From: Rhodospirillales bacterium
Lineage (GTDB): Bacteria > Pseudomonadota > Alphaproteobacteria > SP197
NCBI GenBank assembly: GCA_014323865.1
Contig: JACONG010000013.1
Location: 1 to 64,000, forward strand
DNA length: 64,000 nt
Reading direction: 5' to 3'
Shown: positions 8,205-53,480 of the stretch, piece by piece
Numbering within the stretch: the first letter of the stretch is position 1
Layout of the letters: every line of letters begins with the position of its first letter
Notes under the pieces: generated by a model
The model's database searches: none
What the model saw: the letters and a program-made list of their open reading frames with translations, nothing else
Told to the model about the DNA's origin: nothing
Translations under genes and position numbers: made by a program

Positions 8205-9319
8205 AGAAATGGCGGCCAACAATCGCGACTTTTCTTTTCGCAGTGGTGGCAACCGGTGTTTTGTTTGACTGGGGACACACCGACGTCACGATGGATGAAC
8301 GGACGCAATCAAGAAGTGAAATCATCCAGAATTACGGCGCTCTGATCGCTGCTTCATGGGCGGCTTTTCTGGCCGTCTGGCGTGGCCAGACGGCCTCACA
8401 TCAAGCAGAAATTGCTTCCAAGCAGGTTCAGCAATCCGACAGGCAGCACCGCCAGTCCCTTTCCCAGACACGTTTTTCTCAAGCGGTCGAACATTTGAAA
8501 GACGAGGACCCGGTGGTGAAGCGTGGCGGCATCATGGCGCTTGCGAGGCTGGTCCATGATCAGGATTATCCGAACCGCCAGGATGTGCTTGACATGCTGT
8601 CACAGTTTATCCGCGCACAGCCTCTCCGGGTAACGGAGGAGGAAGAAAGGATTGATCCTCTCGCGGAAATCGCCCTCAAGACTGTGATAGGTGACGATCT
8701 GGACAAGAAACTTGGTTTCGATCTTTCCGGCGCAAAGCTTGTCGGAGTGAACCTGGAAAACAAGCGCCTCATAAATTTGGTTCTCAGAAATGCGAATCTC
8801 GCCCAGGCGAATCTGTGCGACGCGGAAATCGTCGGCACGGATCTCCAACATGCCAACCTCTCCGGCGCGTACCTTATTGGCGTGCAGATATCTCAAACCT
8901 CCCTTTCGGATGCGAACCTCACCGATACACGTCTCTGGCGTGCGTGTTTGAAAGGTGTGGACCTTTTATCAGCCAAGCTCGAAAGCGCGGACCTTACGCA
9001 GGCGAACCTTGCGGATGCGGACCTTAGGAAGGCGAACCTTACGAATGCGAACCTTGGGAATGCGAACCTTGGGAATGCGAAACTTACGGATGCGGACCTT
9101 ACGGATGCGAACCTTACGGATGCGAACCTTACGGATGCGAACCTTACGGATGCGAACCTTACGGGTGCGAACCTCATCGGTGTCATAGGTGTCACACAAG
9201 ACCAACTTGATCAGGCAACCCAACATCCGGATGGGGGACCGCCAAGGAATCTGCCTGACGGTTTGACATGGGATGAGGATGGTGCCAAGAAAAGGTGGAG
9301 AAGCCCTCGGCATGCGTGA
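8201..9319 (+). CDS. Two-TM pentapeptide-repeat protein inserted in the defence operon
   Basis: A 372-residue protein that starts with two hydrophobic helices (about residues 6-24, TIATFLFAVVATGVLF, and 45-65, IIQNYGALIAASWAAFLAVW). A helical linker follows (residues 70-150), then a right-handed pentapeptide-repeat domain (about 175-345) of A[N/D]L-type units such as ANLTDANLTDANLTD. In DNA, 15-bp units of the form ttacggatgcgaacc repeat almost identically at about 9048-9170, a sign of recent unit duplication. The start ATG overlaps the methyltransferase stop with AAGGAGG upstream. A membrane-anchored pentapeptide solenoid could be an effector or scaffold; no catalytic motif is seen. The gene is bracketed by duplicated methyltransferase 3' sequence (8115-8204 and 9335-9415). 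Confidence 0.8.
   Translation: MKKWRPTIATFLFAVVATGVLFDWGHTDVTMDERTQSRSEIIQNYGALIAASWAAFLAVWRGQTASHQAEIASKQVQQSDRQHRQSLSQTRFSQAVEHLKDEDPVVKRGGIMALARLVHDQDYPNRQDVLDMLSQFIRAQPLRVTEEEERIDPLAEIALKTVIGDDLDKKLGFDLSGAKLVGVNLENKRLINLVLRNANLAQANLCDAEIVGTDLQHANLSGAYLIGVQISQTSLSDANLTDTRLWRACLKGVDLLSAKLESADLTQANLADADLRKANLTNANLGNANLGNAKLTDADLTDANLTDANLTDANLTDANLTGANLIGVIGVTQDQLDQATQHPDGGPPRNLPDGLTWDEDGAKKRWRSPRHA
9048..9170 (+). repeat. 15-bp coding minisatellite in the pentapeptide domain
   Basis: Roughly eight consecutive 15-bp units related to cttacggatgcgaac encode near-identical pentapeptides. The copies are more alike at the DNA level than a pentapeptide fold requires, suggesting slippage-driven unit gain or loss. 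Confidence 0.85.
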
Positions 9320-48301: not shown

Positions 48302-48386
48302 TCGTTCAGAATTCGTGGTCGAGCGGTTAACAAGCACTCGATTGCACCACATTGAAGCGCGTCCTACGGGGCGCGTTTCCTTTTTG
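48302..48386 (+). ncRNA. Predicted tracrRNA of the type II-C locus
   Basis: Bases 48301-48331 are the complement, with a few mismatches and G.U pairs, of the 5' part of the CRISPR repeat. Thirteen consecutive bases (cgttcagaattcg) match perfectly, followed by a gtc and agc match with wobbles. Downstream is a short linker (caagcactcgattgcac), then a 10-bp GC-rich hairpin (aagcgcgtcc with ggggcgcgtt, loop TACG) and a T-run at 48381-48385, a rho-independent terminator. The predicted RNA is about 85 nt, on the plus strand, the same strand as the array and opposite to the cas genes. It would pair with crRNA and load Cas9. Confidence 0.82.
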
Positions 48387-48507
48387 TCGCCTCGTGCCAG
48401 ACCAGCCTTGCGCCGGGTCCGCTGTCGGGACAACCTTTGCCGAGGTGACCGGGCACACAAAATGCCTGGACTCGTCAGTCCCCCCCCCCGCGCGACCCCG
48501 CCCGCGC

Positions 48508-48682: not shown

Positions 48683-49027
48683 TCAAAACAGGACCAGTTG
48701 CTGGGGGTTTTTCCGAGGGCCCCTGCGGCCCTGATCCGAGAAGTGAACAATATCGCGATACTGCCGGTCGGTGAAGTTGAGGATCTGGACATCGCCGGCA
48801 GAAGGCAGGGAGCGCTCGATCCTGTTGACCCTTGCATGAAAGGCTTCCTTGCCATTGACGAAGCGGGCATAGACGGAAAACTGGCTTCGCTCGAAACCCT
48901 CGTCCAGCAGGAAGTGCCGAAACGTCGTGGCCGCCTTGCGTTGCTGTTTGGTCTCGATGGGAAGGTCAAACATCACAAGCATCCACATGAGACGATATCC
49001 TGACAGAATGTCGGACTTGCGGGTCAT
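48683..49027 (-). CDS. cas2: CRISPR-associated endonuclease Cas2 (type II)
   Basis: A 114-residue Cas2 with the ferredoxin-like start LMWMLVMFDLPIETKQQRKA (Asp of the first strand present). FRHFLLDEGFERSQFSVYAR and the C-terminal DRQYRDIVHFSDQ plus KNPQQLVLF, usual in type II-C Cas2, follow. It bridges two Cas1 dimers during spacer capture. Its ATG overlaps the cas1 stop (ATGA). It ends 23 bp before the array terminator. Confidence 0.93.
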   Translation of the reverse strand: MTRKSDILSGYRLMWMLVMFDLPIETKQQRKAATTFRHFLLDEGFERSQFSVYARFVNGKEAFHARVNRIERSLPSAGDVQILNFTDRQYRDIVHFSDQGRRGPRKNPQQLVLF

Positions 49028-49935
49028 CGTCCGAGCCCCGCCAGTGTGAGCGCGCCCGGTGGACTGGGGAGAACCAGCGCCAGTTTTCCGGTCTCGAAAC
49101 TCTGTCCCAGCGAGGTCGCCAGCTTTGTGAGCGCAAGCGAGACCGGTGTCACACCGTCGCCAAGCGGCAGATCCGTGCCGATCAGGCGTGCCAAAGCCTG
49201 CTTTGCCGCAGTGTCGACCTCGGTCCCACGGTCAAGCGCAAGATTCCGGGCGGCGCAATCCACCAATGGGCGGAAGGGTTCCATGAGATCGTCGGCCAGA
49301 GCAAACGCATTGCCTCTGTTTGCGTGGTGTATGCCGATGGATGGGTGCAGTCCTGCACCCACCACGGCACGGGCTGTGGCGGCGCGCAGGACGGTATAGC
49401 CATAATTGAGCAACGCATTGACGTCAGAGGCCCCTGGATCGCGCCGGAACGCCTTGCCCATCATGCACGGCCAATAGGTGCGGGCCGCCTGTGCTTCGAT
49501 ATTGGTGCTGTCGCCCGAGGTGACCTTGCGGACCATCATGCGCAGCGGGGCACCGGATTCTCCCATGGCTTCCAGGGCGGCGGCCTGCATCTCCACCTTC
49601 GCGATGATGACCTTCTTCCAGGCTTGTTTCATCAGGGGCAATCGGGCATGCCACTGAGCTCGTATCCGGCCACCTTGCGCATGGTGCCCTTCCAGAGGCA
49701 TGAGCACGGAACGCGGCGCATGATTGGAACCGCACAACACCACCGGCACGCCCCGGTCGGCCAGTTCCGTGAGCAGCGACGTGGACCAGGTGGTGCCATG
49801 CGCATGAACGATCACACCCGCGATCCGGTCGAGTGGGGTGCGCCCGATTTCAGCTCCTCCCTCCGAGACCGTCAGGAAGCCTCGCAGCCGCGCCAGGTGC
49901 CGTCCATCGGTTGCAATGTCAAGGATCTGATCCAG
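49024..49935 (-). CDS. cas1: CRISPR-associated integrase Cas1 (type II-C), non-canonical start likely
   Basis: The conserved Cas1 fold needs the segment ILDIATDGRHLARLRGFLTV upstream of the first canonical start (GTG 49815, before IVHAHGTTWSTSLL). The frame is open back to 50010 but offers no ATG, GTG or TTG there. A CTG at 49935, with GGGAG 6 nt upstream and 30 nt after the cas9 stop, gives a 303-residue protein of normal length. Catalytic residues are present: Glu in GDSTNIEAQAARTYW, His in GLHPSIGIHHANR, and Asp in FALADDLMEPFRP. Alternatives are an ATT start at 49917, or an inactive N-terminally truncated protein from GTG. Confidence 0.85.
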   Translation of the reverse strand: MDQILDIATDGRHLARLRGFLTVSEGGAEIGRTPLDRIAGVIVHAHGTTWSTSLLTELADRGVPVVLCGSNHAPRSVLMPLEGHHAQGGRIRAQWHARLPLMKQAWKKVIIAKVEMQAAALEAMGESGAPLRMMVRKVTSGDSTNIEAQAARTYWPCMMGKAFRRDPGASDVNALLNYGYTVLRAATARAVVGAGLHPSIGIHHANRGNAFALADDLMEPFRPLVDCAARNLALDRGTEVDTAAKQALARLIGTDLPLGDGVTPVSLALTKLATSLGQSFETGKLALVLPSPPGALTLAGLGR

Positions 49936-49964: not shown

Positions 49965-52900
49965 TCAGTCCATCGGATGCGTCGGTCCGGGATCCCGCAC
50001 GCGACCGATCTCATCGACAAGGACCCTGCGGAGGCGGGCTTTCAGAATTGAACTCGGACCCATTCGAATAAACCGGAAATCGTCATCCCTGTCACGATTT
50101 CGCGCATCCGCATTCGCTTCAAAATGGGCTGCGAGAACAACGCCATCGGAAAGATTGAATTGCTGAACATGGCAGATCAGCGTTTCTCCATTCCTTTCGA
50201 TGGCCACCATATCGCGTTTGAACAGTCGCAGGAGCCGCTTTGCCGCCGGGTGCGGGCGATCGACAGCGTCACCATGCGCCTCAAAGGTTGTGACGATCTT
50301 GGCCTTGGGTTTGCCGTCCGGCATTCTCCAGACTTCGTAACAGTGATTGCTGTCACCCTTGTAGGCCTTGTAGGGTTCTCCCTTCCTGTCCCTGATTTCT
50401 ACCCGCGCGGACGATTGCAGGCTTTCGATCAGACGGACATGACGGATTCCCCGATAGGGGTTGGGCTCGCCGTTCGGCAGGTGATCGGACGCGGCAAACG
50501 CCGCCAGCGCGGCCTCGATGTCCTTTTTGTCCTCCCTGCCCTTGATGACCTCGGAGAGCAGTGACTGCAAATAGGGGTCGCGGATGCGCTTGCCCATTGA
50601 TGTCCTGGCAATATCGTCGGACGTCAGCGACAGGAGTGGTTTGCGGCTGACCACGCTTTGCTCGTCCACGATACCGTAAGCGGTATCGTTGTGGAGTTGA
50701 CCGCTGGTGCTGTCTTGTCCCCGCTTTTTCGCCGAGGGATCAATACGCCCATGATCGGCGCGGTGGCTGACGATGATCCTGTTGAGCTGGTTGCGAACAT
50801 CCCCGCGAAAGCCCTCCCAGGGTTCGGGCGTGGTTCTTGCCACCTCTTCGGCGCTCAGGCCATCTCCTTCGCCACGCCTTGCCGCATCGCTGATCTGCTT
50901 GATCAGACCCCGATCCGTTGCGGCAATGACAGCCGCATCGATGGCATGATGTCGGTGATCGGTGCGGTTTTTGGCCTTGGCCGCGCCCTTGTTGTGATCC
51001 GGCAGCAGGCTGTTCAGGCCCCAATGCCGCCGCAGCATCTCGGTCAGCCCAACCCAGACATGCCCCCCTTCGGTATAGAGGGCATCCAGATAGCTTCTGG
51101 CAATGCGGGACAGGTACTGCGTATCCACCAGCGCCCGGTCAAGAAAGTCGTTTTCGCCCTCGAATCGTTCCATCGCGTCCGGAGCAAAGCGCCAACGCTT
51201 GTTTTTGGGCAGATGTTCGAGGTTGGCGGCGATCATGTCCCACCGTGGCGTTTCGCCCCAGACCTCCCATGGGGTTCTGTTCCCTTTCTCCCGGTTGGCT
51301 TCGCGCAGACACAGGGTCCGGTTGGCAACGCTGTCATCCAGCGTGCGGGAATAGGGCAGGATGTGGTCCACATCGCAGCTGCCGTCAAAGACCATGGTGA
51401 CACTGATCGGTTTCCCCGTGTAGGGGCAACAGCGCGGGCCGATTGCCGGCCCCAGCTCCTCATAGAGCCGTAACAGCATCCGATTGGCACCGCTATCCGC
51501 CTGGCCAAGCTCTTCTTCCAGCGTTTTGCTGCGCTTGCGGGCTGCCTCGGTGTTTGTCTTGATGCGGTTCTGTGTGTCCTTCTTCTGCTTGTCGGATTGT
51601 TTGAGGTCCCGGGCCAGTTCCACCACGATCTGATCGGGTTTCCCGTAGGTGGCGATGATCCTGTTCACCAATCGCCGCAACTGGTTGAGACCGATATGCA
51701 CGGTAGGATTGGTAATCCGCCCGAAGCGGGTGATGTCGTCATCCCCGGGCTGCCCCGAGCCAGGGATCACATGCCGATCAAGAATTTCCCCATAATAGGG
51801 CAATTCATCCAGAACCTCGCCTGTGCGGTGATCCGAGTGATGCCAGCCACAGGATTTGACAGCCTGATCATACGTCACCACATCGGCTTCCAGCGCACCC
51901 AGAATCTTCCGCGAAGCCGTTTCTCCCAGGCGTCCATATCCCTCCGGCAAGGGCGCATTTGCAGTGGCCGAGGCGTGCTCCTTCGTCAATCCATGAGTCT
52001 TGACCAGCCAGGCGACCAGACATTTGTGATCGGCCTCACTCTGCACCTCGCGAAGACGTCGGATCACCTCCCACTGCGCGTCCAGATCCAGGTCTGACCA
52101 CCTCGGTCCAAACCTGTCGGGGTGGCTGAGGCTGGCCCGCACCGGGTCACATGCAATGGCGTCACGTGCGATAGTTTCCAGCGTAAAGCGCTCATCTGGC
52201 GCAAGCTCGATGACCTTGCCGAGCTGATCGAGGGTCAACTTCATCGATTTCAGTGATTTCGTCGCCTTCCTGTTGTCCAGTGCGTGAATGATCCGATCGC
52301 GCTGTTCCAGTGTCAGGGACCGTTTCGCACGCCCGTCGGCCGTGACACGCAGGTTGTTCACCGTTTCATGGAGCACGCGCCGCTGGGTCAAGGGGTGTGC
52401 CTTGGGAAGCCGCCTCTCATCGGACGGAACACCATGCTGACCGGAAAAAAGGCACAGCCCGACAGCCGGCTTCTTCAGAGGGCGCTGATGGAAGATCGTC
52501 TTGAAGAGAGCTTTTTTCAGATCATCCGTCAGAACATCCGGATGATGTTTCACTTGCGCATCCCAGAGTTCCCTGAACTCCTCCTCCAGGTGCCGCCGGT
52601 CCGGATAGAAATCATAACCTTCTTCTTCTTTCTCTGCATCGCCCCGCCGAGCCATGCTCGACCGGGTACGCACGGATTTTGTGCGGCGGTCGTCAGGCCG
52701 GGTTCCGTCCTCGCCCGGTTCTTCTGGCTCTCCGCTGCGGCGCATGTGAAGGAACTTGCCATAGGTTCGGGCCTTATTTTTCTTTATCTCCTCATCCAGC
52801 CGCTTCGTGGCCGGCTTGATTTTGCCGCTTTCATTATCGCCCCGATCCGTCTTGCGGTTCGACTTGAAGCCACGTCTCTGATTGAGGTGAAAAAGCGCCC

Positions 52901-53480
52901 GGCCCAGATGTGCAAGCGGAAGCTTCTTGTCCAACCCCCAGGCGCGCAACGCGTAAGGGTCCAGCAACGCAAGAGCCTCAAGCGCCTTGGCCGCCTCCCC
53001 TCGGTCCGCGTCGCCAAGTTCACCATCAAGCGCCTCAAGCACCTCAAGCGCCTTGGCCGCCTCCGGGCCGTCAGGCATCAGCCCGGCCTCGGATAGTTTT
53101 CGCATGAGAGCCGCACCGCCCTCGGCGCCGGGGTAGAGTTGCATCGGTCCGGCCTTGGACAGTTTTCGCATGAGAGCCACGCCCTTCTTGACCCCCTCCT
53201 CGCTGATCGAGAAGGCCAGTCCGGCCTTGGACAGCTTTCGCACGAGAGCCGCACGGCGACGCAGATAGCGATCCCGCCTGCGTCGCATGGAGCGGGCTGC
53301 ACGCCGGTCAACAGCCAGTGACGCACCGGACTTCGGGTCACGACCGTCAGAGAAAATCCTCACACCCCCGTCCATGACGTCGGTTATGCGATTACCGTCG
53401 GTCGAATAAAGCCACCAGCCAATGGAATTTGTGCCAATGTCAAGTCCGAGACGGGTGAGGTTGTCGGTGTTCTGTTCCAT
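49965..53480 (-). CDS. cas9: Cas9 endonuclease, type II-C, with tandem insertions after the bridge helix
   Basis: A 1171-residue RNA-guided nuclease. RuvC-I is LGLDIGTNSIGWWLY (Asp14); the Arg-rich bridge helix is residues 59-76. RuvC-II has QIVVELARDLKQS (Glu621), and HNH has CDVDHILPYSRTLDDSVANR (His706, Asn720) with REANREKGNRTPWE. RuvC-III has DHRHHAIDAAVIAATDR (His845, Asp848). All catalytic residues are intact. Residues 78-134 contain three copies of A-L-[V/M]-R-K-L-S-[K/E]-A-G, coded by 30-bp units at 53221-53250, 53149-53178 and 53083-53112, then a duplicated EAAKALE block at 140-170. The Shine-Dalgarno (AAAGGG) abuts ATG 53480, so the exact start is uncertain. No csn2 or cas4, consistent with II-C. 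Confidence 0.96.
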   Translation of the reverse strand: MEQNTDNLTRLGLDIGTNSIGWWLYSTDGNRITDVMDGGVRIFSDGRDPKSGASLAVDRRAARSMRRRRDRYLRRRAALVRKLSKAGLAFSISEEGVKKGVALMRKLSKAGPMQLYPGAEGGAALMRKLSEAGLMPDGPEAAKALEVLEALDGELGDADRGEAAKALEALALLDPYALRAWGLDKKLPLAHLGRALFHLNQRRGFKSNRKTDRGDNESGKIKPATKRLDEEIKKNKARTYGKFLHMRRSGEPEEPGEDGTRPDDRRTKSVRTRSSMARRGDAEKEEEGYDFYPDRRHLEEEFRELWDAQVKHHPDVLTDDLKKALFKTIFHQRPLKKPAVGLCLFSGQHGVPSDERRLPKAHPLTQRRVLHETVNNLRVTADGRAKRSLTLEQRDRIIHALDNRKATKSLKSMKLTLDQLGKVIELAPDERFTLETIARDAIACDPVRASLSHPDRFGPRWSDLDLDAQWEVIRRLREVQSEADHKCLVAWLVKTHGLTKEHASATANAPLPEGYGRLGETASRKILGALEADVVTYDQAVKSCGWHHSDHRTGEVLDELPYYGEILDRHVIPGSGQPGDDDITRFGRITNPTVHIGLNQLRRLVNRIIATYGKPDQIVVELARDLKQSDKQKKDTQNRIKTNTEAARKRSKTLEEELGQADSGANRMLLRLYEELGPAIGPRCCPYTGKPISVTMVFDGSCDVDHILPYSRTLDDSVANRTLCLREANREKGNRTPWEVWGETPRWDMIAANLEHLPKNKRWRFAPDAMERFEGENDFLDRALVDTQYLSRIARSYLDALYTEGGHVWVGLTEMLRRHWGLNSLLPDHNKGAAKAKNRTDHRHHAIDAAVIAATDRGLIKQISDAARRGEGDGLSAEEVARTTPEPWEGFRGDVRNQLNRIIVSHRADHGRIDPSAKKRGQDSTSGQLHNDTAYGIVDEQSVVSRKPLLSLTSDDIARTSMGKRIRDPYLQSLLSEVIKGREDKKDIEAALAAFAASDHLPNGEPNPYRGIRHVRLIESLQSSARVEIRDRKGEPYKAYKGDSNHCYEVWRMPDGKPKAKIVTTFEAHGDAVDRPHPAAKRLLRLFKRDMVAIERNGETLICHVQQFNLSDGVVLAAHFEANADARNRDRDDDFRFIRMGPSSILKARLRRVLVDEIGRVRDPGPTHPMD
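53083..53250 (-). repeat. Three 30-bp repeat copies inside cas9
   Basis: Copies at 53083-53112, 53149-53178 and 53221-53250 differ from each other at about two positions. They are spaced 66 and 72 bp apart (22 and 24 codons), keeping frame. They duplicate the end of the bridge helix and the start of the recognition lobe. Confidence 0.93.

Follow-up and report, generated by a model that had tools for sequence, protein, structure and literature searches.

The bridge helix of Cas9 and the recognition (REC) lobe meet at a seam which adjoins the seed-reading part of the guide, and the REC lobe itself is thought to have arisen by insertion at this bridge-helix seam. Close counterparts of the Cas9 described here are the type II-C enzymes of Rhodobacterales, of which those from Aliiroseovarius sp. 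(L019) and Sediminimonas qiaohouensis (L006) are 73% and 71% identical to it, respectively. They share its domain order, catalytic residues and bridge-helix arginines, and their loci show the same cas9–cas1–cas2–array order together with similar repeat and tracrRNA sequences. On the other hand, they possess a 52-residue junction with a single LMRKLAEAGLMP-like unit, have kept a PGR loop and carry the tracrRNA upstream of cas9, all of which is different in our locus. Among solved type II-C enzymes, Nme1Cas9 and ThermoCas9 gave the best Foldseek matches to our predicted model (6jdv and 9ar4), with 9ar4 being also the best sequence match among solved structures, but both are about 20% identical and lack a duplicated bridge-helix end, and ThermoCas9 retains NGRIT at a loop that is shortened here. 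In SpCas9, domain insertions and deletions have been engineered, and these variants likewise carry added sequence, but the bridge helix was found to be poorly tolerant of insertions (PMC6098869; PMC8476515). The present protein, in contrast, naturally carries 71 residues directly after the arginine-rich part of its bridge helix, and the intolerance reported for SpCas9 makes it a useful test case for native activity (PMC8476515; PMC6098869).

This Cas9 is encoded in the window, i.e., the whole 64-kb stretch of DNA that was analysed, by the only cas9 copy of the genome. It matches TIGR01865 with 554.7 bits (cut-off 100) as well as the HNH_4 and RuvC_III domains. The features of the gene, with the core copies delimited by 30-bp repeat comparison, are as follows:

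49965..53480, minus strand: cas9, 1171 residues, type II-C-like, one complete reading frame
53250..53318, minus strand: arginine-rich part of the bridge helix, residues 55–77 (invariant columns of alignment A1; helix 55–85 in the predicted model)
53220..53249, minus strand: repeat core copy 1, ALVRKLSKAG, residues 78–87
53148..53177, minus strand: repeat core copy 2, ALMRKLSKAG, residues 102–111
53082..53111, minus strand: repeat core copy 3, ALMRKLSEAG, residues 124–133, ancestral-like (relatives carry, e.g., ALMRKLAEAGLMP)
52977..53063, minus strand: EAAKALE block present twice, residues 140–146 and 162–168, 66 bp apart, with a 9-bp repeat inside at 53026–53053

The RuvC and HNH catalytic positions D14, E621, H706, N729, H845 and D848 all fall within invariant columns of A1, an alignment of 28 Cas9 sequences, and so do the bridge-helix arginines R59, R60, R63, R66, R69, R71 and R75, meaning that the conserved arginines are all kept. 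The protein has also retained 149 of the 151 positions that are at least 96% conserved across the 27 other aligned Cas9s. Judged from its residues, it fits a type II effector, with RNA-guided DNA cleavage as its putative activity.

Counted from the RRRRDR motif of the bridge helix to the REC motif FHLNQRRGF in 63 distinct sequences fetched, the window's own included, the junction is 123 residues long in the window Cas9 and 52 residues long in 58 of the 62 relatives, the other four having 53, 54, 55 and 76. The excess of 71 residues equals 24 + 22 + 22 + 3, corresponding to tandem duplication of 72, 66, 66 and 9 bp, all in frame. It comprises two added bridge-helix ends (ALxRKLSxAG), one added EAAKALE block, whose copies are 85% identical over 39 nt, and one added three-codon unit. 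Since the one unit that relatives possess is similar to copy 3 (e.g., ALMRKLAEAGLMPADPVEAKALE in L089), copies 1 and 2 are likely the additions. Among the relatives, a clearly longer junction occurs only in the 76-residue case, L066, from a genome of the same class (G267), but its extra residues lie later, directly before GRALFH, and do not repeat the bridge-helix end. The single-copy junction is thus nearly constant among relatives, and the window departs from it, although such a junction does not define type II-C. A sequence-only reading of this DNA had described three 30-bp segments at 66- and 72-bp spacing at the bridge-helix/REC junction of a type II-C Cas9, about 46 extra residues and a duplicated EAAKALE block. 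All of these hold at the positions given above, with the two added core units contributing 22 + 24 = 46 residues, and its expectation that relatives are single-copy proved correct, as the triplicated form occurs in none of the 62. In the literature searched, the coverage of which is incomplete, tandem duplication of natural origin was not reported for this seam, and the window protein is a previously unreported natural variant of type II-C Cas9.

The repetition itself is far beyond chance, with 57 overlapping repeat pairs observed versus none in 30 codon-shuffled trials. A dispersed repeat element was considered and rejected, as neither the core nor the 331-bp region has a second place in the 2.8-Mb genome. 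A CRISPR-derived origin, in which the 66-bp period would equal repeat plus spacer, was rejected as well: the 36-bp CRISPR repeat of the locus matched only the two repeats of its array and the core does not match it, so we regard the shared period as coincidental. Cas9 relatives were not found in viral contigs; plasmids carry relatives at about 60% identity, but the insert region alone had no plasmid match.

The sequence-only reading had further taken high DNA identity as a mark of recent expansion, which our comparison does not bear out. The cores are 28/30 (copies 1 and 2), 27/30 (2 and 3) and 25/30 (1 and 3) bases identical, i.e., 83–93%, whereas the 36–42-bp tails that follow are nearly unrecognisable, with gapped alignments giving 19/45, 23/42 and 28/47 identical positions for the same pairs (42–60%) and exceeding codon shuffles only for 1–3 (p = 0.0085) and 2–3 (p = 0.046). 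Recency is weakened also by the core differences, which are synonymous as often as non-synonymous (three and two codons, respectively, for the pair 1–3); in the pair 1–2, core conservation extends to synonymous positions. With identity limited to the cores, the expansion can be called lineage-specific but not necessarily very recent. The contrast between cores and tails suggests something beyond simple neutral drift: the core helices may be under selection, gene conversion over short tracts may have occurred, or the core alone may have been duplicated, the counts being too small to choose among these. As judged from the sequences, the expansion is restricted to the window's lineage among the relatives examined. 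Among relatives whose N-terminus is intact, the closest are 71–73% identical over the whole protein (A1); the N-terminus of an 81% identical relative (L020) was looked for in its genome and was not found, which leaves only loose limits on when, and in what order, the events took place.

The surroundings of the gene are prone to duplications of this kind. The window contains 30 short tandem arrays. Further along the same contig, the adjoining 56 kb (64001–120000) contain none and the 60 kb after that contain 19; stretches of other contigs, 380 kb in total, contain 26. The genome was sampled as 25 stretches in place of the whole sequence. The idea of a slippage-prone genome therefore stands for the surrounding region, which is enriched in such arrays, but not for the genome as a whole. 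The Cas9 expansion fits this local tendency, though most arrays there have shorter units (9–23 bp). Arrays are dense in positions 1–60000 and again in 120001–180000 of the contig (G000:C13; L115–L117), at 2–7 per 10 kb versus about 0.7 on other contigs, and their periods are mostly 9–45 bp, with 15 bp being the commonest. One of them, at 8987–9174, repeats the 15-bp unit GCGAACCTTACGGAT (ANLTD) 12.5 times and looks like part of a pentapeptide-repeat protein.

The remainder of the locus lies next to cas9 as listed below, together with the second site at which the protein differs from its relatives:

51045..51065, minus strand: shortened loop before the RuvC-III helix, HVWV-G-LT(EML) (relatives: x-G-(R/K/Q))
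49024..49935, minus strand: cas1 (TIGR03639), CTG at 49935 being the sole possible start at the conserved position
48683..49027, minus strand: cas2 (TIGR01573), 114 residues
48508..48609, plus strand: CRISPR array adjoining cas2, two identical 36-bp repeats and one 30-bp spacer
48303..48390, plus strand: tracrRNA on the groEL side of the array, with anti-repeat, conserved stem, terminator hairpin and T run

With the operon cas9–cas1–cas2 followed by an array, without csn2 or cas4 and with a GroEL-like ORF beyond, and with a tracrRNA that is complementary to the repeat and ends in a terminator, the locus is type II-C in gene content and guide components. The tracrRNA is flanked by the GroEL-like gene and the array, as opposed to lying upstream of cas9 as in six relatives. 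Both its core and its terminator closely resemble those of relatives; the core pairs with the repeat and differs from those of L019 and L010 by one or two bases in the conserved stretch, so the guide scaffold is not visibly altered along with the protein, and a change of scaffold finds no support here. A phage search for the target of the spacer gave only one 18-base match, at chance level, in one phage. At the conserved cas1 position, ATG, GTG or TTG is found in 20 of 20 relatives read there (a 21st, L020, read one codon off, is left out of this count). In the loop before RuvC-III, a 9-bp in-frame shortening has removed three residues, the basic one among them; none of the 54 other distinct sequences lacks the x-G-(R/K/Q) loop, usually P-G-R, which is a conserved trait of relatives, not a formal criterion of type II-C. 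Every length change in this Cas9, namely the gains of 72, 66, 66 and 9 bp and this 9-bp deletion elsewhere, is a multiple of three. Five in-frame changes in succession would be rare for random indels (one in three each), which argues that translation of cas9 was maintained.

The window Cas9 was modelled by AlphaFold with the 28 sequences of A1 (mean pLDDT 76.6, pTM 0.53). After the bridge helix (55–85), the model places extra helices at 94–108 and 120–131, then helices at 139–151 and 161–171, among them a second EAAKALE helix, and pLDDT is mostly below 50 at residues 76–119 and 148–164. In the model of single-copy L019, the bridge helix (47–77) is followed by short helices at 85–91 and 96–102, with pLDDT block means of 77–94 over residues 61–120. 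Because of the low confidence, the position of the insert is not fixed by the model. From the nearly unchanged tracrRNA and the full set of catalytic residues we infer an insert that is looped out and tolerated rather than a new guide-reading device.

These observations can be accommodated in several ways. The reading that we favour, and regard as fairly probable, is that the insert represents slack, tolerated by a Cas9 that is under weak constraint in a little-used immune system and still uses a standard guide. In-frame tandem duplications arose in series at the bridge helix/REC1 seam in the window's lineage only, most likely as by-products of the local tendency to short tandem duplication, and would have persisted since the protein, weakly constrained yet still translated, can accommodate them. 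As one end of the seam keeps the arginine-rich stretch of the bridge helix and the other keeps its REC side, the 71 residues could bulge from the seam as a loop of short helices while Cas9 still loads an ordinary tracrRNA:crRNA. The duplications are thus probably without new function. Loss of the x-G-(R/K/Q) loop, the one-spacer array and a Cas1 with CTG as its only start are signs of weak constraint; the same signs can also be read as decay, in which Cas9 would have lost all or nearly all activity, the expansion would be just one degenerative change among several and spacer acquisition would have stopped. Several relatives have arrays of at least 13 repeats where the window has two, and broken Cas9 frames are common in the clade, with stops in G016, G018 and G020. 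The 1171 open codons, the exclusively in-frame length changes, the retention of nearly all conserved positions and of the catalytic residues, the identity of the two 36-bp repeats and the conserved tracrRNA make such decay rather unlikely, albeit to be taken seriously.

The favoured reading of tolerated slack is itself opposed by two points: the cores are far better conserved than the tails, which suggests a process not predicted by drift after duplication of whole units, and, by analogy, the intolerance of the SpCas9 bridge helix (PMC6098869; PMC8476515) would speak against toleration of such an insert. The first of these would suit an adaptive insert, whose lysine-rich helices would either make further contacts with the guide:target duplex or shield the bridge helix from AcrIIC2-type inhibitors, for which it is the binding site. 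The insert does adjoin the bridge helix, and the few codon differences between the cores of copies 1 and 3 include fewer amino-acid changes than neutral drift expects, but the codon numbers fall far short of what a selection test needs, the insert occurs in no second genome, and its predicted structure is of low confidence with no fixed place. We consider this improbable, and give an equally small chance to the related proposal that the repeated bridge-helix ends form a selected helical module on the guide-seed side, altering guide loading, mismatch tolerance or inhibitor sensitivity. An assembly artefact, i.e., a single-copy gene misassembled as three copies, is hardly credible: the copies differ from each other at 2–5 of 30 bases, their tails are very different, all junctions are in frame and the core has no second copy in the genome. 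Copies that differ in this way and have unlike tails make an assembly duplicate unlikely.

With a junction more than twice the near-constant 52 residues, this protein lets one probe directly how far Cas9 depends on the geometry of the seam. If the repeated ends were a selected helical module, they would represent present-day, small-scale growth at the very seam where the recognition lobe is believed to have been gained. An active native enzyme would mark an insertion site that engineering screens have written off; an inactive one would record the decay of a Cas9 with its reading frame unbroken.
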